From positions 1-31,290 of the IMG/VR virus record IMGVR_UViG_3300014497_000291: a stretch of 31,290 bases of DNA; one strand, 5' to 3'. Below the pieces are notes generated by a model. It had not been told where the DNA came from, ran no database searches, and saw nothing but the letters and a program-made list of their open reading frames with translations. This DNA is from a virus. The translations under genes and the position numbers were made by a program. Positions 14,124-29,369 of this stretch are shown piece after piece (the first letter of the stretch is position 1; the number at the start of each line of letters is the position of its first letter).

Positions 14124-14464
14124 TCGGTGCCTCGAATCATGTTGGGCTTTGTCGCGCGCTGGGCGCGCTCGTTGTAGGCCTGGCGGCTGTCGGCGTGCTT
14201 GCCGTAGAACTTCCGCCAGCTCGCTTCGAAGGTCGGGAGGTGCGCCAGCTTGTCGCCGTCCACGGCAATGCCCGGCAGCGACACGGGGCGACCGAGCACC
14301 TCGCCTGTGGCGTTCACGGCGTGGCGCAGCTTCGGCTCCAGACCCGCGGCTTTCAGGCCGTCGAACAACTCCATGGCGAAGGGATGGCGCAGGCGGTTGG
14401 CCTCGCGCTCCTGCTCGTAGCGCTGGATATCCCCGCCGATGCGCGCCAGAAGGTCAGTAGTCAT
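14120..14464 (-). CDS. Hypothetical phage protein next to helicase
   Basis: 114 residues starting MTTDLLARIGGDIQRYEQER. It is helical and charged, with a central GEVLGRPVSLPGIAVDGD and a C-terminal WRKFYGKHADSRQAYNERAQ. It overlaps the helicase stop by 11 nt. No family is recognised. A helicase partner is possible from position alone. Confidence 0.7.
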   Translation of the reverse strand: MTTDLLARIGGDIQRYEQEREANRLRHPFAMELFDGLKAAGLEPKLRHAVNATGEVLGRPVSLPGIAVDGDKLAHLPTFEASWRKFYGKHADSRQAYNERAQRATKPNMIRGTE

Positions 14465-15791
14465 AGGCCCCGTGGTGCGACATGTCGCGGAAGCGCATGG
14501 TCTCGGCCTGCCAGACGGCGCGGACGAAGCCGGTCGGGCCGTGGCGGTTCTTCTCCACGCTGATCTCGGCGATGCCCTTGTCGGGCGACTGCTTGTTGTA
14601 GACCTCGTCCCGGTAGAGCATCAGGACCTGGTCGGCTTCCTTCTCGATCTCGCTGGAGTTGGCGAGGTCGCCGATGTTGGGCCGCTTGTCGGCCCGCTTC
14701 TCGACCTCGCGGTTGACCTGCGCCAGCGCAACGACGGGGATGTCCAGTTCGCGGGCGATGTCCTTCAGGCCGATGGCGACGTCACCCACCTGATCGATGC
14801 GCGAGGCGCGCGGGTCGTTGCCCTTGATGCGCTGGACGTAGTCCACCAGGAGGCGCTGGATGCCATGCTTCTGCTTCCACCGACGAGCGACGCGCTGGAC
14901 CTCGCCGATCGTGACCCCGGCCTGGTCGCAGATCATGAGTTCGCGGTCCATGAGGTTGCCCACAGCGTTCGCCATGCGGCCGAGATCGTCCTCGTCGTGC
15001 GAGCCATTGCGCAGGCGCGATGCGTTGATCCCGCCCTCGATCGCGAGGATGCGTGAGCCGATCTGGACGACGGGCTGCTCGGTGGAGATCAGACCGGCGG
15101 CACCGTCGTGCCCGAGTGCCATATTCAGCAGCAGCGCCGTCTTGCCCATGGCCGGACGGGCACCGACGATGATCAGGTCGGACTTGTGCAGGCCGCCGAG
15201 GACGTCATCGAGTTCCGTCAGGCCGGTGGGAATACCCGGGATCTTGCCGCCGCGCTCCTTCGCCGCCGTGGCCGCCTCGTAGGCAATCGTCAAGGCCTGA
15301 CGAAGCGTGTACTCGGTGTTCTGCTCGATGTGCTGCATGCCCATCAGCTGGCCGATGACGCCGTCGACGAGGTCCATCGCCTCCTGCTCCACGCCGAAGG
15401 CGTTCTCGACGAGGTCGGACGCGACCGCGATGACGCGGCGGCGAATGGACTTCTCGCGGACGATCCGGGCGTAGGCCACGATGTTCGCCGCGCTGGGCGT
15501 GTCGTTGGCCAGCTGCATGAGGTACGCCGGCGGCACCTGGTCGAAGTCGTTCTTCGCGAACCACTCGCCCAGCGTGATCGCATCACACGGCGTGCCACGG
15601 GCGGACAAGGCGACCATGGCGCGGAAGATCAGGCGGTGGTCGCCGCGGTAGAAATCGTCAGCGTCAAGGTGTGACGACACGACGTCGATACCGTCGGGAC
15701 GGAGCATCAGTCCGCCCAGGACGCTCTGCTCGGCTTCGTCGGAGTGCGGCGGAACTCGCAGGCCAAGCCGCATGGAGTCGCGCGGGTTCAT
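14454..15791 (-). CDS. dnaB: DnaB-like replicative helicase
   Basis: 445 residues from ATG at 15791, which overlaps the O-like stop (ATGA); the frame extends to 15890 but that part lies over the upstream gene. The N-terminal domain (SDEAEQSVLGGLML) and the RecA-type domain are both complete. Visible motifs are Walker A GARPAMGKT (210-218), STEQP near 238, Walker B LLVDYVQ (314-320), ALAQVNREVEKR and EKNRHGPTG. It unwinds DNA at the phage replication fork and would be loaded by the adjacent O-like protein. Confidence 0.95.
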   Translation of the reverse strand: MNPRDSMRLGLRVPPHSDEAEQSVLGGLMLRPDGIDVVSSHLDADDFYRGDHRLIFRAMVALSARGTPCDAITLGEWFAKNDFDQVPPAYLMQLANDTPSAANIVAYARIVREKSIRRRVIAVASDLVENAFGVEQEAMDLVDGVIGQLMGMQHIEQNTEYTLRQALTIAYEAATAAKERGGKIPGIPTGLTELDDVLGGLHKSDLIIVGARPAMGKTALLLNMALGHDGAAGLISTEQPVVQIGSRILAIEGGINASRLRNGSHDEDDLGRMANAVGNLMDRELMICDQAGVTIGEVQRVARRWKQKHGIQRLLVDYVQRIKGNDPRASRIDQVGDVAIGLKDIARELDIPVVALAQVNREVEKRADKRPNIGDLANSSEIEKEADQVLMLYRDEVYNKQSPDKGIAEISVEKNRHGPTGFVRAVWQAETMRFRDMSHHGAYDY

Positions 15792-16591
15792 CGGCGCAGT
15801 TCCTCGCGGTGGCGCACGGGCTCGTTGCGCTGGCCGAAGCCGTTCGGGCTGCGGGCGTTGCGAATCCAGTTGCGGTAGGTGGCGTCCCAATCGAGCTTCG
15901 TCGCATCACGGCCCGTCTTGGCGTGCCAGTGGTCGCGGAACTTCGCCGTCTCCAGCCGCAGGTCGATGTCCGGCCGCTCCGTGCGGGCAGCGGCAATCAG
16001 TTCCGGCGTGGGGCGCCAGTCATCCGGCAGGCGGGTGCCGTTCCGCTTCGCCGGCTTCGGGGTGCCTGGGGCTTCGGCCGAGGCGAGAGCGAGTGGAGCA
16101 GCCGCCGACGAAGTTGGCGTGCTCTGCTCTTTCTGCTCTTTCTCTTCTTCTCTCCTCTCCTCTCCTCTGTCGTGACCTACCGTGACATTGCGTGACTCGA
16201 TGGTCATTGCCGTGACATCAGCGAGGCGATCACGCTCGCGTTGAGCCCGCTTCCGGTCAGCCGCCGTGGTGTCCTCGGCCTTGGGCTGCCTACGTTTCCA
16301 GGCCATGAGCTCTTCCGCGTCCAGGGTCTTCCCTTGCATCGAGTTGAAGATGGCCTCGACCTCCTCCTCGGGGATATCCAGGGCGATGCCAACGTCTTCA
16401 TTCGACCAGTTCGACAGTTCACCGCGCGGCGATGCCTGTGACGCGTTCTCCATCATCGCGGCCCACACAGCCACAACGTGACCAACCGTGACATTACGTG
16501 ACAGGCGAGCGCTTGCACGTGACGCGACCGTCCGAAGCTTCGGATCGTTGAATGTGCCGTGATGCCAGCGAAACCAGTGTTCCGTTGCCAT
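15788..16591 (-). CDS. O-like replication initiation protein
   Basis: 267 residues from ATG at 16591. The longer frame to 16669 overlaps the previous gene. The N-terminus MATEHWFRWHHGTFNDPKL and the following helices (NWSNEDVGIALDIPEEEVEA) look like a winged-helix initiator domain. Then comes a charged linker with a Glu/Lys/Arg run, and a C-terminal block with DDWRPTPELIAAAR and KFRDHWHAKTGRDATKLDW, as seen in phage helicase-loading proteins. The short peptide SRNVTVGH occurs twice (31-38, 133-140) because the coding DNA contains repeated CGTGAC iterons. DnaB follows directly. Confidence 0.82.
   Translation of the reverse strand: MATEHWFRWHHGTFNDPKLRTVASRASARLSRNVTVGHVVAVWAAMMENASQASPRGELSNWSNEDVGIALDIPEEEVEAIFNSMQGKTLDAEELMAWKRRQPKAEDTTAADRKRAQRERDRLADVTAMTIESRNVTVGHDRGEERREEEKEQKEQSTPTSSAAAPLALASAEAPGTPKPAKRNGTRLPDDWRPTPELIAAARTERPDIDLRLETAKFRDHWHAKTGRDATKLDWDATYRNWIRNARSPNGFGQRNEPVRHREELRR
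16122..16170. other. Polypyrimidine/polypurine tract beside iterons
   Basis: On the plus strand this is almost pure C/T (CTCTTTCTCTTCTTCTCTCC and similar) with very few G. It encodes the Glu/Arg/Lys run of the O-like protein. It directly abuts iteron cluster A. It could be a melting or triplex-prone element of the origin. Confidence 0.6.
16171..16216. repeat. Iteron cluster A, candidate replication origin
   Basis: CGTGAC starts at 16171, 16181, 16191 and 16211: exact 10-bp phasing with one register skipped. The repeats sit on one face of the helix inside the O-like gene, as lambda ori lies inside O. Confidence 0.72.
16477..16523. repeat. Iteron cluster B, candidate replication origin
   Basis: CGTGAC starts at 16477, 16487, 16497 and 16518: the same three-plus-one arrangement as cluster A, 306 bp away. 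The first 26 bases differ from cluster A at only two positions. Confidence 0.72.
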
Positions 16592-17441: not shown

Positions 17442-17515
17442 GGTGCGAAGTCCTTCAGTGCGCGCAGCGCCCGGAACCACGCCAGCCACTCGGCGATCGC
17501 GAAGCGTTGGCGCAT
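17438..17515 (-). CDS. 25-residue micro-ORF, coupled on both sides
   Basis: The frame encodes a 25-residue amphipathic, Trp/Leu/Arg-rich peptide starting MRQRFAIAEWLAWFRALRAL. The ATG shares a base with the CII-like stop (TGATG), and the stop overlaps the next ATG (ATGA). This exact fit, with no spare bases, suggests that it is translated. It could be a functional small peptide or only a translational bridge. Confidence 0.5.
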   Translation of the reverse strand: MRQRFAIAEWLAWFRALRALKDFAP

Positions 17516-17970
17516 CAGGCGAGCCTCACCTGGTCCTGGATGGCCGCCACGAGGTCGACGACGACCTTCTGGACCTGCATGCCCGCGTTGGACGTGTCCT
17601 TCGCCTCGCTGCGCGTGATGACCCCATCCTCTCGTGCCTCGGCGATCGTGCCGGCAAGGTTGCCGGTCATCTGCATCAGCTGGAGGACCAACTCGTCCAC
17701 GCGATGCTGGGCTTCCTGACGCTCGCGCTCGAGGTCGTCCGAGCGTTGGAGGATGTAGCCGTGCGAGTGCGCCAGCGCGTGGAGAATGCGGTGGTCGTCG
17801 GTGACCGTCATCAGCAGGTCAGCCTCCGCCAGCGTCAGGTGATTGCGGTCGTATTGCGGGTTCACCTTGCCGCGCAGCAGCGCGCCGGACATGCCCACCC
17901 GCGGCGCCAGCGACTCGGCCCCGCCGGGGTATGCCTTGACCGTTGCCTGAGCTGCATCGAGGACATTCAT
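17515..17970 (-). CDS. CII-like regulatory protein (CP76 family)
   Basis: 151 residues from ATG at 17970; a TTG five codons earlier is also in frame. The segments NVLDAAQATVKAYPGGAESL, SGALLRGKVNP and LTLAEADLLMTVTDDHRIL match phage regulatory CII/CP76 proteins. The second half is a long helical coiled region. CII-type proteins help set the lysis-lysogeny choice by activating repressor or integrase promoters. It is the first sizeable gene after cro in the leftward operon. Confidence 0.85.
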   Translation of the reverse strand: MNVLDAAQATVKAYPGGAESLAPRVGMSGALLRGKVNPQYDRNHLTLAEADLLMTVTDDHRILHALAHSHGYILQRSDDLERERQEAQHRVDELVLQLMQMTGNLAGTIAEAREDGVITRSEAKDTSNAGMQVQKVVVDLVAAIQDQVRLA

Positions 17971-18074
17971 GAATGTGAATCTCAAATGGTGAGCCGCGCA
18001 GGCTCGGTGGGTAGAGTCCTCACCATGGAAATCAGGGTGAGCAAGGAATCAGTGGACTTTGTTCGGGTGGCGCC

Positions 18075-18152
18075 TCAGCGCCCTACCCGCTTTCGCAGCA
18101 GCCAGAAGGAGCACAACGCGAAGCACAGGAGCGCCAGCGCGTCGGCGCCCAC
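18075..18152 (-). CDS. 25-residue single-span membrane micro-ORF
   Basis: GTG at 18152 lies 1 nt after the Cro-like stop, with AAGGTGG upstream. It encodes a peptide starting MGADALALLCFALCSFWLLR and ending in KRVGR: one hydrophobic helix with positive residues after it. The stop codon lies inside a GGCGC-TGAG-GCGCC hairpin. No family is recognised. A small membrane peptide in the early operon could affect entry or host membrane state (speculative). Confidence 0.45.
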   Translation of the reverse strand: MGADALALLCFALCSFWLLRKRVGR

Positions 18153-18153
18153 G

Positions 18154-18426
18154 TCAGGCCACCTTCTCGTTCAGAACAGTCGGAGTTGCTTCGGCCGTCG
18201 CCCCTGCCGACGCGGCCGGGGTTCGGTGTCGTCGCGGGTCAGCACCTGCAAACACGCCCGGCTTGATCACGAAACGAATCTTCAAATCCATCCATTCCGG
18301 AAGGTCCCCGTCCGGCAGCTTGTTGATTGCCTGCCGGGTAACCCCGAGAGCACGGCCAAGCGCCGCTTGGTTGCCGTCGAAAAGCGCCAGCGCCTGGGCC
18401 TTGGTGATGCGGATCGTCTCGGTCAT
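18154..18426 (-). CDS. Cro-like DNA-binding protein
   Basis: 90 residues from ATG at 18426 (MTETIRITKAQALALF). A helix-turn-helix follows in GNQAALGRALGVTRQAINKL, then PEWMDLKIRFVIKP, typical of Cro/YdaS-like phage proteins. The C-terminal 30 residues are low complexity (Ala/Thr/Pro). It is divergent from the repressor gene across three shared operators, which is the classic Cro position. A TTG four codons upstream is an unlikely alternative start, as it lies in an operator. No strong ribosome site is seen. Confidence 0.85.
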   Translation of the reverse strand: MTETIRITKAQALALFDGNQAALGRALGVTRQAINKLPDGDLPEWMDLKIRFVIKPGVFAGADPRRHRTPAASAGATAEATPTVLNEKVA

Positions 18427-18433
18427 GTCCACA

Positions 18434-18497
18434 GTCAACCACAGTTGTCCTTATGAGGTCAACTACGGATTACTCGTTTTCGTCAACAATGGTTGAC
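18434..18497. promoter_or_regulatory. Immunity region: three operators at 24-bp spacing
   Basis: Dyads of consensus GTCAAC-N4-GTTGAC lie at 18434-18449 (GTTGTC right half), 18458-18473 (weak right half GATTAC) and 18482-18497 (perfect). Centres are 18441.5, 18465.5 and 18489.5, exactly 24 bp apart. A rightward promoter may use TTGTCC (18445) and GATTAC (18468) with a 17-bp spacer. TTGAC hexamers on the minus strand could serve the cro promoter. Confidence 0.82.
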
Positions 18498-19154
18498 ATG
18501 AGCACTCTCGGGGAGCGGCTGCGCGAGGCGCGGCGGGACAAGAAGGCGAAGCAGGAAGACCTGGCCACCGTGGCCGGCGTCTCAAAGCAGGCAATCTCGA
18601 AGATCGAGAACGGCGGCACCCTGGAGCCTGCCATGTCCACGATGGAACCCATCGCACGCTTCCTGGGCGTCAACGTGCGCTGGCTGACCGATGGGAAGCA
18701 GCCAAAGCACATGGAGACTCAGCCCACGGCCGAGGGGTGGGACGACATCATCGGCGTGCGCCAGGCCGCCGCCCTGGGCGAAGGCGCCGTGGTCGACGAG
18801 TACGCCGAGACCCACAAGCTCAAGTTCCGGGCCGAGAGCCTGCGCCGCAAGAAGCTGCGGGCCGACCGGCTGGCCGTGCTCTATGGCCGCGGGGACTCGA
18901 TGTCGCCCACCATCAAGGACGGCGACGCCATCCTGTTCGACACTTCAGATATCGAGCCGCGTGACGACAAGATCTATGTGATCAGCTACGAAGGTCACCT
19001 GATGGCCAAGCGGCTGGTCGAGCTTGGCGGACGCTGGTTCATCGCCAGCGACAACAAGGACGACCCGAAGTGGCGCAAGCCGGTCGCGGTCGACGAAACA
19101 AGGCAGTTCGCCATCCACGGCCGGGTACGATGGATAGGTAGCTGGGAGGACTGA
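18498..19154 (+). CDS. CI-like repressor with S24 peptidase domain
   Basis: 218 residues from ATG at 18498; ATG at 18489 is an in-frame alternative. XRE-type helix-turn-helix in residues about 5-60 (LATVAGVSKQAISKIENGG). The C-terminal LexA/S24 domain has Ser134 in GDSMSP and Lys171 in LMAKRL as the catalytic pair. It maintains lysogeny by binding the adjacent operators, and RecA-stimulated self-cleavage would induce the phage. No Ala-Gly or Cys-Gly pair occurs in the linker, so the cleavage site is not obvious. The start is so close to the putative promoter that the message may be nearly leaderless. Confidence 0.93.
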   Translation: MSTLGERLREARRDKKAKQEDLATVAGVSKQAISKIENGGTLEPAMSTMEPIARFLGVNVRWLTDGKQPKHMETQPTAEGWDDIIGVRQAAALGEGAVVDEYAETHKLKFRAESLRRKKLRADRLAVLYGRGDSMSPTIKDGDAILFDTSDIEPRDDKIYVISYEGHLMAKRLVELGGRWFIASDNKDDPKWRKPVAVDETRQFAIHGRVRWIGSWED

Positions 19155-19189
19155 TGCTGAACACACGACCTTTGGCCCATTGCACGATA

Positions 19190-19205
19190 ATAACTAGGTA
19201 GTTAT
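19190..19205. promoter_or_regulatory. Palindrome upstream of toxin gene, likely TA operator
   Basis: ATAACTA-GG-TAGTTAT is a perfect 7-bp inverted repeat in an AT-rich patch 4 bp before the toxin start. Type II antitoxins commonly repress their own operon at such a palindrome. Confidence 0.65.
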
Positions 19206-19209
19206 ATTC

Positions 19210-19617
19210 GTGCTCCATCTGATCATCCATCCAGATGCAAAGGCCGATCTCCAGAGGCTGAAAGCCGTAGACGCGCATGCTGCCGCCACAATTGCCGTTT
19301 TCCTTCAAGAAGTTAGTGGTAATCAGGATCTGTTGGATAGGCTCACCCAGGACGGATTCGGGATCGAGGGGCGCCATGACTTCAACGTACGAAAGATCGG
19401 AAATCAGCTGGCTGCAGGCCACAACATGTGGCGGGCCAAGATCTGGAAGTTGGAAAGGCGCGGCCGTAAGTACCGGGTGATCTACGCCTTCGTTCCATCG
19501 AAACGAAGCCACTACGTATTAGGCATCATGCCGAGAGAAATTGACTATGTCCGCGACGATGAGTTCATCCGTCGAGTTGAGAGAGCATACGACAGCATCC
19601 GAGACGGTCGTTGGTAA
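19210..19617 (+). CDS. RelE/ParE-type toxin
   Basis: 135 residues from a GTG start (MLHLIIHPDAKADLQRLK). The C-terminal half MWRAKIWKLERRGRKYRVIYAFVPS split by loops, then HYVLGIMPRE and FIRRVERAYDSI, fits the RelE-fold toxin superfamily, whose members mostly cut mRNA on the ribosome. The basic Lys/Arg core typical of the active face is present. It is followed and overlapped by an HTH antitoxin gene (toxin-first order, as in HigBA). Local GC is visibly lower than in the phage core, which suggests later acquisition. Confidence 0.83.
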   Translation: MLHLIIHPDAKADLQRLKAVDAHAAATIAVFLQEVSGNQDLLDRLTQDGFGIEGRHDFNVRKIGNQLAAGHNMWRAKIWKLERRGRKYRVIYAFVPSKRSHYVLGIMPREIDYVRDDEFIRRVERAYDSIRDGRW

Positions 19618-20041
19618 GGGGACCATACATACGGGCACTGCTGCCCTAGGGCGGCCCGTCGTCGTTGCCCTACGAAAGCCTGAAGCGAAGCCGGTTTTGC
19701 CGGTGGGATATTCGAGCATAGACGATGTCGTCTCCGAACTATTTTCGGATGCTGACGGCGCGCAGGCTTTGCTCGAAGCACGCGCCGATCTGGCCGAGGA
19801 CATCCATGCCATCGAAGGAATGACCCTTCGCGCGCGCCGGCTGGCCCTTGGCCTTTCTCAGGCTAAGCTTGCCGAGATGATTGGGACGCAACAGCCACAC
19901 ATCGCTCGAATCGAGCGTGGCACCGAGAATCTCCACATTAGTACTTGCCGGCGCCTCTGCGTGGCTCTCCAAGTTGATATGAACGACATGGATAAGCTCC
20001 TCGAACGGCAGGAGCAGGCCGCAATGCAGCGGGTGAAGTGA
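19547..20041 (+). CDS. HTH antitoxin (XRE type)
   Basis: 164 residues from ATG at 19547, overlapping the toxin gene by 71 nt; a TTG two codons earlier is in frame. The N-terminal 80 residues are loosely structured and probably bind the toxin. The C-terminal domain LRARRLALGLSQAKLAEMIG followed by QQPHIARIERG is a clear XRE helix-turn-helix. It would neutralise the RelE-like protein and repress the operon at the upstream palindrome. It ends in the start of a third gene (TGATG). Confidence 0.85.
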   Translation: MSATMSSSVELREHTTASETVVGKGTIHTGTAALGRPVVVALRKPEAKPVLPVGYSSIDDVVSELFSDADGAQALLEARADLAEDIHAIEGMTLRARRLALGLSQAKLAEMIGTQQPHIARIERGTENLHISTCRRLCVALQVDMNDMDKLLERQEQAAMQRVK

Positions 20042-20499
20042 TGGCACCCCGCGATTTCGACGTTCTGTATTCGGACGATGTGCGCTATGAAGTGGGCGGG
20101 AAGGTCTCTTACATCGGGTGCTACAACGGTGAGTTATGGGTCAAGGATTTTCCCCTGACGCTTCCCAAGCTCTGCGTCACTTTGTGGGCTCGCATCCCTC
20201 ACAGCAATCCCGTAGAAAGCCTAATTTTCCGCGTATTCAAGAATGACGAGTTGCTGCACGAGCAGAACGCAAACATTGCCGATGTCCCGCAAGCCCACTC
20301 CGCTGACTTCTGGGAACAGCAGCGACCTTCAGACATGGAGACGTTTACCATGCTCATGACGACGGTCATCTTTTCCCCAATGTTGCTTGAGGACGCTTGC
20401 TACATTCGCGTCCGAGCCTTCACATCCGACGGCGATGAATTGAAAGCTCCCGCGCTTCATATTCGAATTGCTCCACCGGAGTTCAAAGAGTTCCTATAG
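20041..20499 (+). CDS. DUF6941-like protein coupled to the TA pair
   Basis: 152 residues from ATG at 20041, which shares a base with the antitoxin stop. The N-terminal half FDVLYSDDVRYEVGGKVSYI, YNGELWV and FPLTLPKLCVTLWARIP resembles a family of small beta-rich proteins I know as DUF6941 (name less certain). The C-terminal half is beta-rich and hydrophilic. It ends right before a strong terminator, so toxin, antitoxin and this gene form one transcription unit. Its role is unknown: a chaperone, a third TA component or a passenger. Confidence 0.65.
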   Translation: MAPRDFDVLYSDDVRYEVGGKVSYIGCYNGELWVKDFPLTLPKLCVTLWARIPHSNPVESLIFRVFKNDELLHEQNANIADVPQAHSADFWEQQRPSDMETFTMLMTTVIFSPMLLEDACYIRVRAFTSDGDELKAPALHIRIAPPEFKEFL

Positions 20500-20519
20500 C
20501 CCGCTCCGGCGGGCTTTTT
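20498..20519 (+). terminator. Intrinsic terminator after the TA operon
   Basis: AGCCCGC-TCCG-GCGGGCT followed by TTTTT: a perfect 7-bp GC stem with a U-run, beginning within the stop codon of the third TA-operon gene. Confidence 0.92.
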
Positions 20520-20556
20520 CGTATCATGGGCCGGGGATTTGCCACAGGGGAATGGA

Positions 20557-20988
20557 ATGCGTCACACCTTGATTCTTGTTGCCTGCTCGATCGTCGTCCT
20601 TGCAGGTTGTGTCACCAAGCCGCCGCGGCCTGACCAGCTGCGTCAGCCACCCGCCGACCGGCTCCTAGCCTTCCAGTCGCCCGCGGACGGGGACTCTCGC
20701 ATCGTCGTCACCCGCGACGTGGGCATGCAAGGCAGCGCCTGCTTCGGCGCCGTCTTCATTGATGGCAAGGTCGTGGCCAAGCTTGCCACCGGCGAGCGGG
20801 CTACGTTCCACGTACCTAGCGGCGAACATATCGTCGGCACCTGGAACACCGGCTCCGGCCTTTGCGGCTATCGAGAGGGCAAGGACCGCCGGGAAACGTC
20901 GACCGTGCTGAAGGCTGGCGATGAGAAGCGGTTCCGGATCACGATCAACCCCAATTCCGGCGTCGAGATCAGCCCGACGACCCTGTAA
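20557..20988 (+). CDS. Lipoprotein, DUF2846-like
   Basis: 143 residues from ATG at 20557, with GGGGA upstream. The signal peptide MRHTLILVACSIVVL is followed by lipobox LAGC. The mature part, with SRIVVTRD, the pattern FIDGKVVAKLATGE and HVPSGEHIVG, resembles DUF2846-type lipoproteins. It is probably anchored in the outer membrane or facing the periplasm. It stands alone between two terminators, so it likely has its own promoter and may be expressed in the lysogen. Confidence 0.78.
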   Translation: MRHTLILVACSIVVLAGCVTKPPRPDQLRQPPADRLLAFQSPADGDSRIVVTRDVGMQGSACFGAVFIDGKVVAKLATGERATFHVPSGEHIVGTWNTGSGLCGYREGKDRRETSTVLKAGDEKRFRITINPNSGVEISPTTL

Positions 20989-21003
20989 CGGCCCGCTTCC
21001 CTA

Positions 21004-21022
21004 CCCGCTCCGGTGGGCTTTT
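21004..21022 (+). terminator. Intrinsic terminator after the lipoprotein gene
   Basis: CCCGC-TCCG-GTGGG then CTTTT: a 5-bp stem with one G-U pair and a short U-run. It closely resembles the 20498 terminator (GCTCCGG(C/T)GGGCTTTT). Confidence 0.68.
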
Positions 21023-21029
21023 CCGTACC

Positions 21030-21104
21030 ATGAGCGATCCATTATCCGCAGGGGGAGCGGACCCAGATGTCGCCGAAACGCTGTGTAAGCAGCGAGGAAT
21101 GTAG
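21030..21104 (+). CDS. Possible 24-residue ORF in a mini transcription unit
   Basis: ATG at 21030 opens a 24-residue frame starting MSDPLSAGGADPDVAETLCK. A competing 20-residue frame starts at 21067 with GGGGGAG upstream. Both lie between two intrinsic terminators. It may instead be a short noncoding RNA. No recognisable product. Confidence 0.25.
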   Translation: MSDPLSAGGADPDVAETLCKQRGM

Positions 21105-21127
21105 CTTGGGAAGACCCGCGACGACTT

Positions 21128-21149
21128 AGCCCGCCTTGGCGGGCTTTTC
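21128..21149 (+). terminator. Intrinsic terminator upstream of the accessory operon
   Basis: AGCCCGC-CTTG-GCGGGCT followed by TTTCTTCT: a perfect 7-bp stem with a U-rich tail. It insulates the accessory/integration operon from upstream transcription. Confidence 0.88.
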
Positions 21150-21167
21150 TTCTCCTGAAAGAATTTC

Positions 21168-21207
21168 GACAACTGTAGTTGACTATCAGCAGACAACTAT
21201 GGTTTAC
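21168..21207 (+). promoter_or_regulatory. Second repressor operator pair with candidate promoter
   Basis: GACAAC-TGTA-GTTGAC (21168-21183) and GACAAC-TATG-GTTTAC (21192-21207) have centres 24 bp apart, the same spacing and half-sites as the immunity region. A -35 TTGACT (21179-21184) and a -10 TTTACT (21203-21208) with an 18-bp spacer lie inside the two sites, so repressor binding would block them. Confidence 0.75.
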
Positions 21208-21243
21208 TTCTTCCACGCCACCACACGGCGATGGGAGAGGATC

Positions 21244-21687
21244 ATGGGCACCAACGAATCGAGTTACCTGACGATCGATAGGTTTCGTCAGACCGTGACG
21301 GTTTATCCGGACCAGCGCATCGAGGTGAGCTCGACCGGCTCGGTCAGCACCACCGAAGAGCTTCGCGACCCGGCATCTGACCTCGTCGGCGTCTACGTGA
21401 CCGTCGGCCCCCTTTCCATGGCGATCTCGACGGAAGAGGCTCTTCAGTTTGCCGCGGCCCTGACCGAAGCGGCGCTCTTCTACCGCGAGAAGAAGGTCGC
21501 AGCGCTGGAGCACTACGAGGCCATGGCTCGTGAAGCGCAACAGCTGCACGTTACAGCACCTGGCCGGAACGTTGCATGCTGCGATTGCGATGGGACTGGT
21601 CGCGGCGGCTCAAACACGACCGATGGCAGCCCCTACGATGACTGCTGCGCCTGCTCTGGATCGGGTGTCGCGAGGGCCGTGGCATGA
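21244..21687 (+). CDS. Zinc-finger hypothetical, first gene of the accessory operon
   Basis: 147 residues from ATG at 21244, with GAGAGG upstream; an earlier ATG at 21199 lies inside an operator. The N-terminal part is beta-rich (LTIDRFRQTVTVYPDQRIEV), followed by helices (ALQFAAALTEAALFYREKK). The C-terminus has paired DnaJ-type knuckles CCDCDGTGRGG and CCACSGSG, a zinc-binding arrangement. The function is unknown. As the first gene after the operator-controlled promoter it would be made on induction or infection. Confidence 0.78.
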   Translation: MGTNESSYLTIDRFRQTVTVYPDQRIEVSSTGSVSTTEELRDPASDLVGVYVTVGPLSMAISTEEALQFAAALTEAALFYREKKVAALEHYEAMAREAQQLHVTAPGRNVACCDCDGTGRGGSNTTDGSPYDDCCACSGSGVARAVA

Positions 21688-21914
21688 ACGCCCGCCTCGT
21701 CTTCACCATCGCCTTCTGCCTTGCTGCCTTCGGCTGCGCCACGCCGCTCTTCCCCGAGAAGACCCAGCGCGAGCGGGACATCGAGCAGTGCACCTACGGC
21801 ACGGTCGTCCCCCACAACATCCGGCAGCGGGATCGCGCCCACTACATCCAGCACGTCGTCGTTCCGGCCTGCCTGCGCGCCAAGGGCTACACCGACGTGG
21901 AGGGTGCCCGATGA
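21684..21914 (+). CDS. Small lipoprotein
   Basis: 76 residues. Signal peptide MNARLVFTIAFCLAAF with lipobox AFGC; mature part of about 57 residues with Cys in EQCTYG and VPACLRAKGY. This looks like small lipoproteins of Xanthomonad prophages with a possible disulfide. ATGA overlaps with both neighbours. A role in cell-surface change or exclusion is only a guess. Confidence 0.75.
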   Translation: MNARLVFTIAFCLAAFGCATPLFPEKTQRERDIEQCTYGTVVPHNIRQRDRAHYIQHVVVPACLRAKGYTDVEGAR

Positions 21915-22228
21915 GCACCGAGACGCAGAAGGTGACGAACACCAAAGTGCTCGCGTTCCCCGAAACAACCGATTACAGGGCACTCCATCAGGCGGAGAAG
22001 ACGCGTCGACTGCCGGATGGCCGCTTTGCCTGTGTGGCGGCCCTCTACTTCCAAGGCCAGCGCGGAGCCTATGTCACGGTTATTGCCGAAACGCGTGCCC
22101 GGGCCATCCGAACCGCCTCCGACTACCTCAACTGCGGTCAGCAAGCGTTGACTGATCCGCTATATGCCGCTCGGATGCGCAACGTCGCTGAGCGGTCCGA
22201 AGCCCGCCTTCGCGCGATGGGAGGCTGA
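21911..22228 (+). CDS. Hypothetical phage protein
   Basis: 105 residues starting MSTETQKVTNTKVLAFPETT. A central FACVAALYFQGQRGAYVTVI suggests beta strands; ETRARAIRTASDYLNCG and ARMRNVAERSEARL are helical. No family is recognised. The start overlaps the lipoprotein stop by 4 nt. Confidence 0.68.
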   Translation: MSTETQKVTNTKVLAFPETTDYRALHQAEKTRRLPDGRFACVAALYFQGQRGAYVTVIAETRARAIRTASDYLNCGQQALTDPLYAARMRNVAERSEARLRAMGG

Positions 22229-22231
22229 CTC

Positions 22232-22360
22232 ATGAAGCTCCGCATCCATAGGTACGGGGGCCGAAAGTCGCTTCGGGTCGTGCGCGGCGATGGCGCCATC
22301 TTCATCGACTGGCAGCGCTATGCGCTCGAGATCCGCTGGAGGGAGCCCAAGCCGCTATGA
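22232..22360 (+). CDS. 42-residue basic hypothetical protein
   Basis: Encodes 42 residues beginning MKLRIHRYGGRKSLRVVRGD with a Trp-rich second half (IDWQRYALEIRWRE). Good ribosome site GGGAGG 7 nt before the ATG, and the stop overlaps the next start (ATGA). Too short for family recognition; highly basic and beta-like. Confidence 0.65.
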   Translation: MKLRIHRYGGRKSLRVVRGDGAIFIDWQRYALEIRWREPKPL

Positions 22361-22572
22361 GCACACTCAACGTCCGCCAGCAGCGCGCCCTGCGCTACGC
22401 CGTGATGAAAGCCGAGGGCGATCGCGATCTGCGCGCGGCTGAGTTGCTTCGTCATGCCCATTCGTCTACGCCGAGCCTGCAGCGCTTCTTCGAAAGCCCC
22501 CACGGTGTCGTGCTGATGCTGGTCGTCGGGCTTGCCATCTTCGCGCTGTTCGCCCCCGTGGGGTCCTTCTGA
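22357..22572 (+). CDS. Small membrane protein
   Basis: 71 residues. The N-terminal two thirds are helical and basic (NVRQQRALRYAVMKAEGDRD). One C-terminal membrane segment, VVLMLVVGLAIFALFAPVG, ends at the stop. A tail-anchored arrangement is likely. It shares TGATG with the next gene, also a small membrane protein, so the two may act together. Confidence 0.7.
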   Translation: MSTLNVRQQRALRYAVMKAEGDRDLRAAELLRHAHSSTPSLQRFFESPHGVVLMLVVGLAIFALFAPVGSF

Positions 22573-22697
22573 TGCGCCGCCTGATCGCCTGGTGGATGTC
22601 GGCGCCGTGGGACGAGCGCGAGGCCGTGATCTTCGTCCTCGGTATCTGGACCCTGGGCGCGCTCGTCTGGCTGATCGATCCCGCTTCCCACCACTGA
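22572..22697 (+). CDS. 41-residue membrane protein
   Basis: 41 residues starting MRRLIAWWMSAPWDEREAV, then one membrane helix (IFVLGIWTLGALVWLI) and a short His-ending tail. Coupled to the preceding membrane protein by TGATG. It is followed by 350 nt without a convincing gene, so it closes this part of the operon. Function unknown. Confidence 0.65.
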   Translation: MRRLIAWWMSAPWDEREAVIFVLGIWTLGALVWLIDPASHH

Positions 22698-22793
22698 ACG
22701 CACCGCGCCTTCCCCTCCCTCCCCCGGAGGTGTGGCGCGTACCGACGCCGGCGGTCGATGCACCGGCACCTACAACTTAGGACTGGATGACTT

Positions 22794-22837
22794 CGCGTGA
22801 TTCAAGACGGTCCTCATAAATGTCCACGAATCACGCG
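22794..22837. repeat. Inverted repeat, 10-bp arms
   Basis: CGCGTGATTC (22794-22803) and GAATCACGCG (22828-22837), a perfect dyad with a 24-nt spacer. It could form a hairpin in RNA of either strand. Confidence 0.7.
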
Positions 22838-22888
22838 TCTGCTGGCTGAGCCTAACCAGCCTCGCCGCCCTGTCGAGTAGCACAAGGC

Positions 22889-23007
22889 ACAGATCTGGCC
22901 GTTCGGATGTGTGCGCTTACCCCGGAGCGCGAGTGCCGGGATTCCGAAATGTGTCTTTCGTGTTTGGGCCAGAGGTGTAGCGGCCTCTACCGAGCGGCCA
23001 GATCTGT
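22889..23007. repeat. Inverted repeat, 13-bp arms with GATC
   Basis: ACAGATCTGGCCG (22889-22901) and CGGCCAGATCTGT (22995-23007) are perfect inverted copies with a 93-nt spacer. Each arm contains AGATCT and hence a GATC site. Confidence 0.7.
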
Positions 23008-23048
23008 CCACCTTCAACAGCGCCGGCCTCGCCGGCAAAGGATTTCCC

Positions 23049-23480
23049 ATGGGCTACAACACGAAGTTCTCTGGCGTGCTGACGTTCGTCGACGTACCGA
23101 CCGTCTACCAGCTCGCAAAGCTCAACACCTTCCTTGGCCAAGACTGCCGCGACCATCCGGAATGGAACGCCGGACCCTATGCCTCGTACATCGACCTGGT
23201 CGTTACGAGCGACTACACCGGCCTCGAGTGGGACACGGCAACAGAGAAGACCTACGGCCTCGTCGACTCGGTGAATGTTGTCATTCGTGAGATGCGTAAG
23301 GAATGGCCGAACTTCGGTCTGTCCGGCACGCTCGTCGCACAGGGCGAGGATTTTGACGATCGGTGGGCGCTCGTCATCGGTGACGATGGCTTCGCGACCA
23401 AGCAGCCTCTCGCATTTTCCGGCACGGCCGTAACGTGCCCGCACTGCAAGAAGAATTTCTCCGTCGAGTCCGTGGGCTGA
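23049..23480 (+). CDS. Conserved phage protein with zinc-finger tail
   Basis: 143 residues from ATG at 23049, with AAAGGA upstream. It starts MGYNTKFSGVLTFVDVP and contains QLAKLNTFLGQDCRDHPEW, YIDLVVTSDYTGLEWD and EKTYGLVD. The C-terminus carries VTCPHCKKNF, half of a zinc ribbon. I recognise this pattern from widely distributed phage proteins of unknown function. The frame extends upstream without a good start. Confidence 0.8.
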   Translation: MGYNTKFSGVLTFVDVPTVYQLAKLNTFLGQDCRDHPEWNAGPYASYIDLVVTSDYTGLEWDTATEKTYGLVDSVNVVIREMRKEWPNFGLSGTLVAQGEDFDDRWALVIGDDGFATKQPLAFSGTAVTCPHCKKNFSVESVG

Positions 23481-23488
23481 TCGCAGCC

Positions 23489-23695
23489 ATGCCGCGCACC
23501 CCCGACATGCTCACCGGCTGGTTCGACAACCAGACCACCAGGCATCGCGAGTACTGGGACAACGGCGTCAAGGGTCGCCACGCCCACCGCTCCGCCATCT
23601 GCCCGCACAGCGTGCACCCCGAACTGCGTCCCGAGTGGGGCAGCAATCCCGACCTCCCGCATAACGCCAACGCCTCCAAGGAATCCGCAGCGTGA
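23489..23695 (+). CDS. Small hypothetical phage protein
   Basis: 68 residues from ATG at 23489 (MPRTPDMLTGWFDNQTTRHR). His-rich middle GRHAHRSAICPHSVHPEL. The ribosome site is weak and an in-frame ATG at 23435 overlaps the previous gene, so the start is uncertain. The stop overlaps the methyltransferase GTG (GTGA). Unknown function. Confidence 0.65.
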   Translation: MPRTPDMLTGWFDNQTTRHREYWDNGVKGRHAHRSAICPHSVHPELRPEWGSNPDLPHNANASKESAA

Positions 23696-24555
23696 CCGTG
23701 ACCAAGCCCGCCCTGCGATACCACGGCGCCAAGTTCCGGCTGGCCAGCTGGATTCTCAGCTTCTTCCCGCCGCACCGTTGCTACGTCGAGCCATTCGGCG
23801 GCGCGGCCGGCGTGCTACTCCAGAAGCCGCGCTCCTACGCCGAGGTCTACAACGACCTGGACGGCGACGTGGTCAACTTCTTCGCGATCGTCCGGAACCC
23901 AACGACGCGAGCCGCGCTGGTCGAAGCGTGCGCCATGACGCCGTATGCCCGGGAAGAGTTCGATGGAGCTTGGCAACCGACCGGGGACCCCATTGAGCGC
24001 GCGCGACGACTCGTGATCCGGGCGCAGATGGGCTTTGGTTCCGCGGGCGCCAGCAAAGGGACCACAGGCTTCCGAATCGACACCGCCCGCGCCTACGGAA
24101 CGGCGCAACAATTGTGGGCCGAGTACCCCGCATCGATCGCCCCGGTCGGCGAACGTTTTACTGGGGTGCTTATCGAGAACCGACCGGCCATCGAGGTCAT
24201 GCGCCAGCACGATGCCGGCGAGACCCTGCACTTCATCGACCCGCCCTACCTGCATTCCACGCGTGTCATGCAGAAGGGGAAAACCGGCTACTACCGCCAT
24301 GAAATGACCGAGGTCGATCACGCCGAACTGCTGGCCGCGATCCTCGAGCTGGAAGGCATGGTCGTCATTAGCGGCTATCGCTCGGACCTCTACGACCAGG
24401 CGCTCGCTGGGTGGACCCGTCACGAGACTGGATCGAGGATCAGCGCCGGTCGCGGCACCGCTGTGCGCACAGAGATTGTCTGGGTCAACAGCGCCTGTCG
24501 CGACGCGCTCGAGGGGCGCGCCGACGGCCTTTTCGCAAAGGAAGCCACCGCATGA
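23692..24555 (+). CDS. D12-class N6-adenine DNA methyltransferase
   Basis: 287 residues from a GTG start. Motif YVEPFGGAAG (SAM binding, residues about 31-40), EVYNDLDGDVVNFF and catalytic DPPY (183-186) are all present, as in Dam-like D12-class enzymes. It transfers methyl from SAM to adenine in a short target. The target cannot be told from sequence; GATC is common in this class. No restriction gene is adjacent, so it is an orphan enzyme that may protect phage DNA or alter regulation. Confidence 0.93.
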   Translation: MTVTKPALRYHGAKFRLASWILSFFPPHRCYVEPFGGAAGVLLQKPRSYAEVYNDLDGDVVNFFAIVRNPTTRAALVEACAMTPYAREEFDGAWQPTGDPIERARRLVIRAQMGFGSAGASKGTTGFRIDTARAYGTAQQLWAEYPASIAPVGERFTGVLIENRPAIEVMRQHDAGETLHFIDPPYLHSTRVMQKGKTGYYRHEMTEVDHAELLAAILELEGMVVISGYRSDLYDQALAGWTRHETGSRISAGRGTAVRTEIVWVNSACRDALEGRADGLFAKEATA

Positions 24556-25127
24556 CCACCTCCACCATCACCCCCGCCGAGTTCGAGAAAGCCCTCCGCC
24601 TGGCCTGTGTTCAGTGTGCGGCCCGCGGCGCCCTGCACCCCACGATCAACCCCTTCACGCATGGCGACGAGTTCGCCGTTCGCTACGGGCCATTCCTGGT
24701 CGATATCGCGAAGCTGGTCGGACTGACCATTCCTCAGACCAGGCGCCAGATGAAGAAGCTGCAGGACGACGGGCGCGTGCTGCGCGATGACGTCGCTGGC
24801 GGGCGGACGCGCTGGTGGTTGGCCGGACTGTCCGCCGAGCTTCGCCCAACGCCGCTCCCCGTCGCGGCGCCAGTGGTGCACGCCACGCCCTCGCCAGCGA
24901 CAGCCCGTCAAGGTGTGACGAATGTGCACGCGGTGCCCGTACGCGAGCCCTGGTGGAAAGTTCTGGGCGTTGCCCGTGACTGCTCGACCAGCGAGGTGCG
25001 CCAGGCTTTCAAGGACTGCATGGACGGCGTGCCGGAATACGACCTCGACGCGGAGCAGCAGCGCCAGCGCATCCGCGACGCCTACAACGCCCGTCTCACT
25101 GAAGACGGTATTTCGGAGTACGAGTGA
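24552..25127 (+). CDS. Winged-helix and J-like domain protein
   Basis: 191 residues. Residues 1 to about 95 suggest a winged-helix domain (FLVDIAKLVGLTIPQTRRQM then DDGRVLRDD). A Pro/Ala-rich linker follows, then PWWKVLGVARDCSTSEVRQA and a helical end, resembling a J-domain. The HPD tripeptide needed to stimulate DnaK is absent where expected. It may bind DNA and act as a degenerate J-protein. Starts in the methyltransferase stop (ATGA). Confidence 0.65.
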   Translation: MTTSTITPAEFEKALRLACVQCAARGALHPTINPFTHGDEFAVRYGPFLVDIAKLVGLTIPQTRRQMKKLQDDGRVLRDDVAGGRTRWWLAGLSAELRPTPLPVAAPVVHATPSPATARQGVTNVHAVPVREPWWKVLGVARDCSTSEVRQAFKDCMDGVPEYDLDAEQQRQRIRDAYNARLTEDGISEYE

Positions 25128-25129
25128 CC

Positions 25130-25420
25130 ATGAGCAACGAAACCAACGATAACCCACGCTTCTTCTGGTTCGGCGAGAGCACCGAGATATGCGCCGCGAA
25201 GGACTTCGAGCAGGCTCTCGAATTCAGCTGCTACGAGTTCGACGAGGACGAGCCGCGCGACGACCAGTGGGGCGAGCTGCCGGCCGACTACACGCTCTCC
25301 ATGATGGAAACCGACGAGAACGAGCGGCCGATCAAGGATGAGCCCACCACGCAGACCCTGCTGGAGTGGTACAGGGCCGAGCCAGGCATGCCGCAGATCA
25401 TGTGCTCGGCCTACAACTGA
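25130..25420 (+). CDS. Acidic hypothetical protein
   Basis: 96 residues from ATG at 25130 (an in-frame GTG lies two codons upstream). Strongly acidic, with EFDEDEPRDDQWGELPADY and METDENERPIKDE. No family is recognised. Many small acidic phage proteins mimic DNA to block host nucleases or regulators, but nothing beyond charge supports that here. Confidence 0.68.
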   Translation: MSNETNDNPRFFWFGESTEICAAKDFEQALEFSCYEFDEDEPRDDQWGELPADYTLSMMETDENERPIKDEPTTQTLLEWYRAEPGMPQIMCSAYN

Positions 25421-25430
25421 GGGCCTGACC

Positions 25431-25595
25431 ATGGACCAGCCCATCCGCCCCATTGCGATCGCCCGCGATGGCCAGGTGCGCGTGTTCGTCGGCTCCGCGT
25501 GGCAGTGCATGGACATTGCCGCGGCCGAAACTCTCTATTCCCAACTCGCCCGGGCCATCGAGCAGGCGAAGCAGCAGGAGGCCGTAAAGCCATGA
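25431..25595 (+). CDS. 54-residue hypothetical protein
   Basis: Starts MDQPIRPIAIARDGQVRVFV with a beta-like first half and a helical, Gln/Ala-rich second half (LARAIEQAKQQEAV). GAGG lies upstream. The stop overlaps the next ATG. Unrecognised. Confidence 0.65.
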   Translation: MDQPIRPIAIARDGQVRVFVGSAWQCMDIAAAETLYSQLARAIEQAKQQEAVKP

Positions 25596-25828
25596 CGACC
25601 GAATTCAACGACCACGCGTTGCGCCTGAAGGGCAAGCTGCCGATCCAGATTATGTCGTTCGCCGACGGCGGCGAGGGTGATCAGGTATGCGACGACCACG
25701 GCATCGGCGAACTGACCGACAGCGGCCACGGATTCGTCGAGATCGGCATGCACTACGGCGATGAGCGGGTCTATGTGCGGTTCCGGCTCTCCGACCTCAT
25801 TCGCGCTATCAAGGAGCACAACCTGTGA
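25592..25828 (+). CDS. Small hypothetical protein
   Basis: 78 residues starting MTTEFNDHALRLKGKLPIQI. Contains an acidic turn GGEGDQVCDDHG and the C-terminal VYVRFRLSDLIRAIKEHN, a strand-helix pattern. Not recognised. ATGA and GTGA overlaps with both neighbours. Confidence 0.65.
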   Translation: MTTEFNDHALRLKGKLPIQIMSFADGGEGDQVCDDHGIGELTDSGHGFVEIGMHYGDERVYVRFRLSDLIRAIKEHNL

Positions 25829-27087
25829 ACGACGAATCCAGCAAGTACCAGGCGGCCACCGACCAGGATAGCCTCCGAGCGTCGATCTATAACCTGCTGG
25901 CGAACTATCGCCTTCAGAACTGGGTCGATGAGGACGGCGAGAGCGGCTTTCCCCTGGTTGACGCGCTGAGCAATGGCGCTGGCACGATCGCGCCAGGCCT
26001 TGGTGAGATCGAATTCATCGCCGATGCCATTGCGGCCCATCTTGAGGCATCCGGCATGGTGCCTCCTGTCGATGCCTCCCAGCCTGCCGAGCAGCCGATG
26101 GGCGACCTCGACAAGGCCATCCACGCGATCGACGACCTGGTCGCCCTGAATGGCGAAGAACACGACGAGGCTGCGTGGAAGCTCATTCGCGATTGCGTCC
26201 TAGCCTCCCAGCCGAAGGCCGCCACGGATGCGCAGGTGGCGTTCCCTGCGCGGCACGTTGCTGTTCTTCGCCGATATTTGCAGCACTTACAGTCCTCCTC
26301 GCCGACTCAGAGCACACGACCAAGCTGGGCCGAATTGAAGCAAGCGTTGCGAGCCACTGTTGATACGCTCATCCACCCCGCGCCCTCGCAGGCTGTCGGG
26401 TCTCCTGTCTTCGCCTGCACAAAGTGCAGAGACACAAAGCAAGTATGGGAAACCTTCGGGACTGGCCTCGCGGTTAGTTCGAGAAAGGTGCCATGCAACT
26501 GTGCAGAGCAGGCTGTCGCCACGGCTGGGGATGGGGTGACGGAGGAAATAGTAGACGCCGCCATGCTTGCGTGGTCCGGCTACTGGTGCGACTGCAATGA
26601 CGCGAATGCCGCTGGCAACAATCGCGACGCTATGGAAGCGGCCCTCGCCGCCCTCGCCTCGCCTAGCGCACCGCGAGTGGGGGTGCCAATCGAGCAGTCT
26701 GGGGACGTAGTGGCGCATTGCCTGCTTCGTAAAAATGGCCATGGCAAATGGGTCAATGACGCTAAACGGTGGGTGGATGGCGTGCCGGCCGCCGAACTTG
26801 AACGCGATGTGGCAAAGCACCCCGACCTCTATCGCATCAGTTACGCCTATGCCAAACCGCTGCCCACGGGCGGGGTGCCGGACGGTGTGGTGCGTGATGC
26901 CGCACGATATCGGTGGCTGAACTGCCACATTCAAGTCACGGTGAACCATGGTTGCCCTAGCCACCTTGGCTTCGAAATGCGTACCGACGCTGATCGGAAC
27001 CAACCGCACTCGCTCCTTATCGACCAGGCCATAGACATCGCCATGCGCGCCACCGCGCCTGCCCCGGGCAAGGGTGGTGAGGCATGA
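25825..27087 (+). CDS. Mosaic multi-segment phage protein
   Basis: 420 residues from a GTG start overlapping the previous stop. It looks like fused small modules. The N-terminal helical part contains GEIEFIADAIAAHL. The middle has CTKCRDTKQVWETFG and VPCNC, a possible zinc site. Later come MLAWSGYWCDCNDANAAG and a C-terminal VVRDAARYRWLNC module. Such modules occur singly or joined in Ea31/Eaa-like accessory phage proteins. Function unknown. The central part has lower GC than its neighbours, which fits recombination. Confidence 0.7.
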   Translation: MNDESSKYQAATDQDSLRASIYNLLANYRLQNWVDEDGESGFPLVDALSNGAGTIAPGLGEIEFIADAIAAHLEASGMVPPVDASQPAEQPMGDLDKAIHAIDDLVALNGEEHDEAAWKLIRDCVLASQPKAATDAQVAFPARHVAVLRRYLQHLQSSSPTQSTRPSWAELKQALRATVDTLIHPAPSQAVGSPVFACTKCRDTKQVWETFGTGLAVSSRKVPCNCAEQAVATAGDGVTEEIVDAAMLAWSGYWCDCNDANAAGNNRDAMEAALAALASPSAPRVGVPIEQSGDVVAHCLLRKNGHGKWVNDAKRWVDGVPAAELERDVAKHPDLYRISYAYAKPLPTGGVPDGVVRDAARYRWLNCHIQVTVNHGCPSHLGFEMRTDADRNQPHSLLIDQAIDIAMRATAPAPGKGGEA

Positions 27088-27332
27088 GCGCCGTGTCGAA
27101 CCTGCCTAGCCGGAGACTGACTTCTGCGCAGGCCCGCGACCTGCGGGAGCTTGTGCGCAATCCGAAGTTCTACGCGGGGTCGAGCCTCAACAAGACCATG
27201 AAGGCCCTCCAAGCGAACGGCCTCGTTCGACTCGAATGGTTTGAAAGCGCGACGGGCTACTACGGCCGCGATTCCCGGTGGGTCGTTACTGAAGCCGGAA
27301 AGCTCGCCGCCGCGCCGGAGGTGCCAAAGTGA
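27084..27332 (+). CDS. Small winged-helix-like protein
   Basis: 82 residues starting MSAVSNLPSRRLTSAQARDL. TMKALQANGLVRLEWF and GYYGRDSRWVVTEAGKLA fit the helix-wing pattern of small wHTH proteins (a short linear helix, then a beta hairpin and T/E-G-K). A DNA-binding regulator is possible. ATGA/GTGA overlaps with neighbours. Confidence 0.65.
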   Translation: MSAVSNLPSRRLTSAQARDLRELVRNPKFYAGSSLNKTMKALQANGLVRLEWFESATGYYGRDSRWVVTEAGKLAAAPEVPK

Positions 27333-27547
27333 ACGTCCGGATCAAGTCCTTCCGCATCACCGAAGAAGACCTAGCCATCCTTGAGCGTGCCGTTCCCGTC
27401 ATGCACGAAGCCATTTCGAATCTGCCAGCCGTCTATTTCCGTCCCGATGTGCAGGTCGCCATGGAGGAATCCAAGCGAATCTTGAGCGATGTGCGCTGGG
27501 ACAACGGGCTGTTTCTTGAGATCGACGTGAACGTGGGAGGGATGTAA
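27329..27547 (+). CDS. Small hypothetical protein
   Basis: 72 residues from a GTG start overlapping the previous stop (MNVRIKSFRITEEDLAILER). Helical centre and an acidic C-terminus ending VNVGGM. Unrecognised. The next gene shares TAATG with its stop. Confidence 0.62.
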   Translation: MNVRIKSFRITEEDLAILERAVPVMHEAISNLPAVYFRPDVQVAMEESKRILSDVRWDNGLFLEIDVNVGGM

Positions 27548-28197
27548 TGAGCGAAGAACTAAAGCCGTGCCCCTTCTGTGGCGGCAGTGACCAATTTGTA
27601 GAGCGATACGACTACTGCTCGTGCTTCGTCCAGTGTGACGGGGCGGATAGCGAAGGTATGGCTTGTTTGTGCCGCGGGCCTGTCTCCCTACAGGACAGTG
27701 ACGACGAGGAAATCCCCGGACACGACGCCGCCATCCGAGCCTGGAACCATCGTCAGGCGCCGTTCCAGAAGCGGGTGTCGAAGTGGATGGGCCAATGCTT
27801 CCTGCCTTCGCTCTACAGCAACATGACTGAGCGTGGTGATCGGCTGCTCGAAGAGGTGCTTGAACTGCTCCAGTCGAATGGCTACGACCACAGCCGGGTT
27901 TCCACGCTGGTGGACTATGTCTACGGCCGCCCGATCGGTGAGCCCTCGCAGGAGGTCGGTGGCGTCATGGTCACGCTCGCCGGCTATTGCTGGATCGCTG
28001 GCCTCGACATGCACGCCGACGGCGAGCGCGAATTGGCAAGGATCAACCAGCCCGATGTCATGGCGAAGATCCGCGCCAAGCAGGAGGCGAAGAACGCCCT
28101 GCATTTCGACACGCCGCTGCCTGGTAACGCCAACCATCCGCATACCGAATATCCGGCGGATATCGGCATAGCGGGTCACGGGGAGGTGCAGTCGTGA
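27547..28197 (+). CDS. Lar-like zinc finger fused to dNTP pyrophosphohydrolase domain
   Basis: 216 residues in two parts. Residues 1 to about 75 contain CPFCGG, further Cys and the WNHR ending typical of Lar-type restriction alleviation proteins. The rest (ERGDRLLEEVLELLQSNGYD, VDYVYGRPIGEPSQEVGGVM, AGYCWIAGLDMHADG) matches the DUF550/MazG-like dATP/dGTP pyrophosphohydrolase family. Its EEV-E and later Glu/Asp residues would hold Mg. Combined antirestriction and nucleotide-pool control is plausible but not proven. Confidence 0.83.
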   Translation: MSEELKPCPFCGGSDQFVERYDYCSCFVQCDGADSEGMACLCRGPVSLQDSDDEEIPGHDAAIRAWNHRQAPFQKRVSKWMGQCFLPSLYSNMTERGDRLLEEVLELLQSNGYDHSRVSTLVDYVYGRPIGEPSQEVGGVMVTLAGYCWIAGLDMHADGERELARINQPDVMAKIRAKQEAKNALHFDTPLPGNANHPHTEYPADIGIAGHGEVQS

Positions 28198-29022: not shown

Positions 29023-29369
29023 TGGGCTGGTCACTCGGCTACGACGAGAACTGGAAGCGTGACGTCGGCTACGGCGTGCCGGCAACGTGCGATCACCCGG
29101 GGTGTGGGGCGGAGATCGACCGCGGACTGTCCTTCGTCTGCGGTGGTGAGCCCTACGGCGGAACGCATGGCTGCGGGCTGTTCTTCTGCAGCGAGCACCG
29201 GACCCGCGCCGGCGACCGACGGGACAATGCGCCTCTGTGCGCGCGGTGCTACACCAACAAAGGCAAGACCTACGATCTCACCCCAGACACGCCGAAGTGG
29301 ATCGAACACAAGGCCACCCACCCGAGTTGGGCAGAATGGCGAGCGGAACAGGAGGCGGCGAAGCTGTGA
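29022..29369 (+). CDS. Zinc-binding hypothetical protein
   Basis: 115 residues. Cys/His-rich: TCDHPGCGAEI, FVCGGEP, HGCGLFFCSEH and LCARCY suggest two zinc sites. The C-terminus is helical with WAEWRAEQEAAK. Function unknown; common near integrases in Xanthomonad-type prophages (impression, not a search). Confidence 0.72.
   Translation: MGWSLGYDENWKRDVGYGVPATCDHPGCGAEIDRGLSFVCGGEPYGGTHGCGLFFCSEHRTRAGDRRDNAPLCARCYTNKGKTYDLTPDTPKWIEHKATHPSWAEWRAEQEAAKL

Follow-up and report, generated by a model that had tools for sequence, protein, structure and literature searches.

The window, which is the whole 31,290-nt stretch of viral DNA analysed here, carries two 16-bp dyads at 21168-21207 that match those found 2.7 kb away, between a repressor gene and its divergent neighbour. 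A preliminary description had taken this distal pair for an unusual second immunity site, and the locus raises the question of what part the pair plays in the repressor's regulon.

We designate the distal pair OL, with an outer site 1 (GACAACTGTAGTTGAC, 21168-21183, plus strand) and an inner site 2 (GACAACTATGGTTTAC, 21192-21207, plus strand). The proximal sites, OR, are three 16-bp dyads starting at 18434, 18458 and 18482 (18434-18497, plus strand) and lie between cro and cI (18426-18498). The starts of the two distal dyads are 24 bp apart, the same spacing as that of the proximal ones. A scoring matrix was derived solely from the three OR dyads and used to scan the whole record. The distal dyads scored 22.6 bits at 21192 and 22.5 bits at 21168, ranking second and third in the record and exceeding two of the three sites from which the matrix was made, and none of 300 Markov-simulated windows reached these scores. 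The preliminary description had been right about the matching dyads, their spacing and the OL-OR separation of 2.7 kb, and the whole-record scan that it proposed as a check returned both distal dyads as the best remaining matches. No matrix match to a third OL dyad was seen 24 bp to either side of the pair, and the scan of the record found no further operators besides OR and OL. The sixth-best match, at 26941 (score 16-17), is isolated within a gene and barely exceeds the 95th percentile of simulated maxima (14.8); it was judged to be a chance match. A loose consensus search allowing 3 mismatches gave 24 matches against 21.6 expected, which is not significant by itself, and the case therefore rests on the matrix and the spacing. 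Phage records yielded no BLASTN match to 18100-21700.

Relatives of this prophage were found in Luteibacter, Dyella and Xanthomonas. For each relative, the best dyad triple upstream of cI was identified without the window's motif, converted to a matrix and used to scan the locus; registers for the groups that have no clear third site (L002-L007 and L010) were picked by eye. Loci with unclear de novo operators (L013, L015, L036, L037 and several from Acinetobacter) were left out, and in the four numbered ones the tblastn match does not start where the repressor does, so that the stretch examined may be something other than the cI-cro gap. Within each of 16 relatives, OR and OL have one common dyad, and this dyad varies by immunity group: GTCAAC/GTTGAC in the window, L001, L008 and L009; GTAAAT/ATTTAC in L011, L012 and L034; GTTCA-CTAGAC and CTAGAC in L007, L014 and L038; CTATGG/CCATAA in L002-L006; and CTACGG/CCGTAA in L010. 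Every group has a pair of its own dyads, spaced by 22-24 bp, at a distance of 0.9-3.1 kb downstream of cI. The OL pair of the distant locus L027 lies 4.2 kb downstream of cI, and a third OL site seems to be present in L007 and L014. When all matrices were run against all loci in a 17x17 cross table, the OL pairs of the same or a closely related group were found (scores 10-24), whereas unrelated groups mostly scored below 10. A search of 2.9 million viral contigs for a pair of GACAAC-N4-GTTKAC dyads separated by 6-10 bp gave just two stretches, namely the contig of L001 and a new, held-out locus, L047. The latter carries a cI relative (64%) 1.4 kb upstream of its OL pair and has its own three-site OR with 23/24-bp spacing.

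A promoter is predicted within the distal dyads. This pL promoter, TTGACT-18-TTTACT (21179-21208, plus strand), has most of its -35 element (21179-21184) in OL site 1, and its -10-like element (21203-21208) is overlapped by site 2. A sigma-70 scan of 17500-22500 called no promoter; it missed pL because TTTACT lacks the A at position 2. TTGAC is present at the right edge of the outer OL site in all five operator groups, and in every group the inner site ends in TTTACT, TAGACT, CATAAC or similar, 16-18 bp beyond TTGAC. The -35 element is thus constant across groups while the remaining operator sequence varies. The opposite strand shows the same build at pR, whose -35 element falls in the middle OR site of the window (minus strand). 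The pL promoter that the preliminary description had placed within the dyads is therefore supported, despite the negative consensus scan and an 18-bp spacer, by elements that recur across operator groups. On the other side of the region, the cro ATG lies ~8 nt past the pR -10-like element (18426-18439) and the cI ATG (18498) directly adjoins OR; the two messages may both lack a leader.

The repressor gene, cI (18498-19154, plus strand), encodes 218 aa with an HTH_3 domain (Pfam, 9.5e-13) and a Peptidase_S24 domain (9.3e-16), and matches PHROG_4 (3e-45). The closest solved HTH chains include 434 repressor and Cro. The S24 Ser/Lys pair, S134 and K171, is invariant in 11 repressors, as is the residue pair at the cleavage-site position, which is Leu93-Gly94 rather than Ala-Gly or Cys-Gly. 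SOS-cleaved repressors carry Ala-Gly or Cys-Gly at this site. Judging from these residues, SOS cleavage of CI may be altered or lost, and it should not be taken for granted that RecA cleavage brings about induction, since the repressor family has Leu-Gly there.

Divergent from cI, the minus strand carries the late and replication genes (capsid, portal, terminase and DnaB). The lytic (pR) operon opens with a gene (18154-18426, minus strand) that is cro-like mainly by its position and divergence; it matches PHROG_409 weakly (9e-4) and is 85% identical in L001. Downstream of cro lies a CII-like activator (17515-17985, minus strand; Pfam Phage_CP76, 1.3e-34; PHROG_101) that belongs to the CP76 family, not to the lambda CII family. 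The lytic operon also includes a DnaB-like replicative helicase (14454-15890, minus strand; Pfam DnaB_C, 4.8e-77). On the plus strand, the interval from cI to OL holds, in order, a toxin-antitoxin-like pair, a small gene, a lipoprotein gene and a terminator. The toxin-antitoxin-like pair (19210-20041, plus strand), which sits between cI and OL, where lambda has rex, and is also present in L006, consists of an HTH_3 protein (19541-20041) and a putative toxin that matches only PHROG_5869 (function unknown) and no named family. The phage lipoprotein gene (20539-20988, plus strand) matches PHROG_890 (5.6e-41). The intrinsic terminator (AGCCCGCCTTGGCGGGCT, 21128-21145) and its T-rich tail (TTTCTTCTCC) extend over 21128-21155 on the plus strand and close the cI-accessory unit just before OL.

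Comparison of the window with L002 and L006 revealed which parts of the region change together. The repressors of the window and L002 are 31% identical over residues 1-78 and 97% identical over residues 79-218. Their DNA is 82% identical over the cII region (17755-18231) and 93% identical over the rest of cI, and similarity is lost at 18232-18731 (cro, OR and the DNA-binding half of cI) and again at 21013-21209 (OL). The match resumes at 21210, at 96%, just past the operator and the -10 element. L006 carries the window's accessory cassette between cI and OL, yet has the other operator at both ends. This pattern indicates that OR and OL track the DNA-binding half of CI and not the adjacent genes. 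It corresponds to a heteroimmune exchange in two separate pieces, with the C-terminal half of cI and the pL operon left nearly unchanged.

Downstream of OL, the ORF map shows a rightward (pL) operon of ~22 close-packed ORFs (21244-30732, plus strand), the first of which encodes a small protein carrying CxCxGxG motifs and the last an integrase. The preliminary description had described a plus-strand operon ending in the integrase, which we find, and had given it 16 genes, which is too few. No strong plus-strand terminator was found inside the operon, and the packing of the genes together with this absence suggests read-through from pL to int. A 350-bp non-coding gap at 22698-23048 breaks the operon; it is 93% identical in L002, is partly kept in L006 and L007, and may contain a pause site or a further promoter. 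An inverted repeat in this gap, cgcgtgattc/gaatcacgcg, is absent from L006. No N-like antiterminator gene was recognised among the proteins scanned. The operon encodes a Lar-type restriction alleviation protein (27547-28197, plus strand; Pfam Lar_restr_allev, 3.2e-9), comparable to lambda ral, and a Dam-type adenine methyltransferase is also encoded within it at 23692-24555. These two proteins are probably anti-restriction functions that are made early.

The final gene of the operon encodes a tyrosine integrase (29578-30732, plus strand; PHROG_1, 3.5e-28; 48-49% to Pseudomonas phage integrases). The integrase gene is co-directional at the operon end in L001, L003, L006 and L010, faces the opposite way in L007 and L009 and is located elsewhere in L008. 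Since the last three differ, int would commonly but not universally be under OL control, and it is not an obligatory part. Beyond the operon, the 3' part of a tRNA-Lys gene (30802-30876, plus strand; anticodon UUU by eye) was detected with the Rfam tRNA model (model positions 10-63), and ARAGORN found no complete tRNA. This tRNA part is probably the attachment site. It is followed by ~0.4 kb of probable host sequence, and the stretch 30802-31290 forms the right prophage end.

Collectively, the sequence evidence makes it highly probable that the pair at 21168-21207 is OL and serves as second operator region in an immunity region built like that of lambda, in mirror image. We regard it as OL and not as an extra immunity site because the arrangement is that of the lambda plan and is present in all 16 relatives. 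The proposal of a second immunity site thus holds in so far as the pair is an operator region for the repressor, but the arrangement is not unusual; it is the normal lambdoid design. Since OR and OL have one dyad in common and, from relative to relative, it changes at both places together, it is very likely that a single repressor controls the lytic side (cro, cII and replication) as well as the accessory and integration operon. We infer the following scheme, including CI binding, cooperativity, looping and pL-to-int read-through. CI dimers would bind the 16-bp dyads, three at OR and two at OL. Bound at OR, CI would shut the minus-strand lytic promoter pR (cro, cII and replication); bound at OL, it would cover the -35 and -10 elements of pL, silencing the 9.5-kb operon with its early accessory genes, restriction alleviation gene and integrase. 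The 24-bp spacing of the sites would suit pairwise cooperative binding, and the OL-OR distance would permit a CI-bridged loop as in lambda. Upon induction, pL and pR would open together.

Other readings of the distal dyads have to be weighed against this one. Their main ligand might be not CI but the Cro-like protein, or some other regulator of the operon. In lambda, the operators of CI are also bound by Cro (PMC11077077), and the cro-like gene was exchanged along with OR and the DNA-binding half of CI. Against this, the operator groups track the DNA-binding half of CI, and a cooperative dimer fits arrays of two or three dyads with 24-bp spacing. Cro is expected to share the sites, which is compatible with control by CI, and we consider a site mainly for another protein very unlikely. 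A truly unusual extra operator, acquired by an accessory and excision operon from outside the usual regulon, would fit with the length of the pL operon and its inclusion of the integrase. It is more improbable still, as the arrangement recurs in the 16 relatives, in a D3-like form and in lambda, and the record is without operators besides OR and OL. That the OL-like sequence is a relic or chance repeat with no present function is the least credible reading, with a probability close to negligible: none is expected by chance, the sites have been renewed with the repressor in other groups and the -35 element has been kept in every group.

Between OL and the first gene of its operon, single-sequence folding predicts that the pL leader (21209-21243, plus strand) forms, over about the first 30 nt of the predicted transcript (21209-21238), an 11-bp hairpin with the first gene's Shine-Dalgarno sequence in its 3' arm. 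The hairpin has an MFE of -16 kcal/mol, and no shuffled sequence folded equally well. Similar hairpins are predicted in most of 16 loci (mean z of -2.4 compared to -0.1 in random windows), and the first pL gene varies among many of the loci that carry one. The leader alignment yielded no structure with RNAalifold, and the outer stem showed no compensatory change, so the support comes from single-sequence folding only, and we treat the hairpin as a lead rather than a result. As it is kept across prophages that differ in operators and first genes, a cis-acting role may apply. That it is an RNA control element, either a translation gate or an N-independent antitermination element, replacing N/nut in this phage group is a tentative idea that we consider rather unlikely. 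HK022 put is the comparison case for N-independent antitermination.

These findings bring largely unstudied prophages of Rhodanobacteraceae and Xanthomonadaceae under the lambda paradigm, with operators that are readable from sequence. They also describe a natural experiment in heteroimmunity, in which at least five specificities are represented and the DNA-binding half of the repressor, OR and an OL 1-3 kb away change together, while the C-terminal half of the repressor and, in one pair, the pL operon are almost identical. How two separated operators can be switched without a virulent intermediate becomes testable, and the HTH domains, together with the cognate sites predicted for them, form a series of differing specificity.

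Among the closest known systems is lambda itself, in which rex adjoins cI. From the lambda record (NC_001416; OL1-3 at 35591-35651, OR1-3 at 37951-38014 and int at 27812-28882), the same script recovered the annotated OL1-3 when given OR1-3. Lambda CI binds OL and OR, with three sites each, and represses pL and pR (PMC11077077); OL and OR are 2.3 kb apart and are looped by CI (PMC3708714), compared to 2.7 kb here. The window shares with lambda the order cII-cro-OR-cI-accessory genes-OL-pL operon-int, with int last, as well as OR and OL sites mostly 23-24 bp apart and a restriction alleviation gene in the pL operon. It differs in its mirror orientation, in having two OL sites instead of three (a third is not regarded here as essential to the type), in its unrelated operator sequence, in a toxin-antitoxin-like pair that replaces rex and in a CII of the CP76 family, and no N, exo, bet or gam was recognised. 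The CP-933P cryptic lambdoid prophage also has a toxin-antitoxin pair in its immunity region, and its OL/PL operators resemble the PR/PRM ones (PMC8630535). Its repressor PaaR2 belongs to the toxin-antitoxin operon, whereas cI here is separate and of the S24 type. Among described repressors in the phage collection, that of Pseudomonas phage D3 (NC_002484) is among the closest, after Xanthomonas phage PBR31. The D3 cI is 34% identical, and D3 has three annotated operators 24 bp apart that lie between cro and cI, a Lar-like gene on the OL side and, as a matrix match only, an OL-like pair 1 kb downstream of cI; its operator sequence is different. Finally, although at least five operator specificities occur among them, the prophages and viral contigs L001-L012, L014, L031-L034, L038 and L047 have a related repressor C-terminal half and the same two-operator plan as the window.
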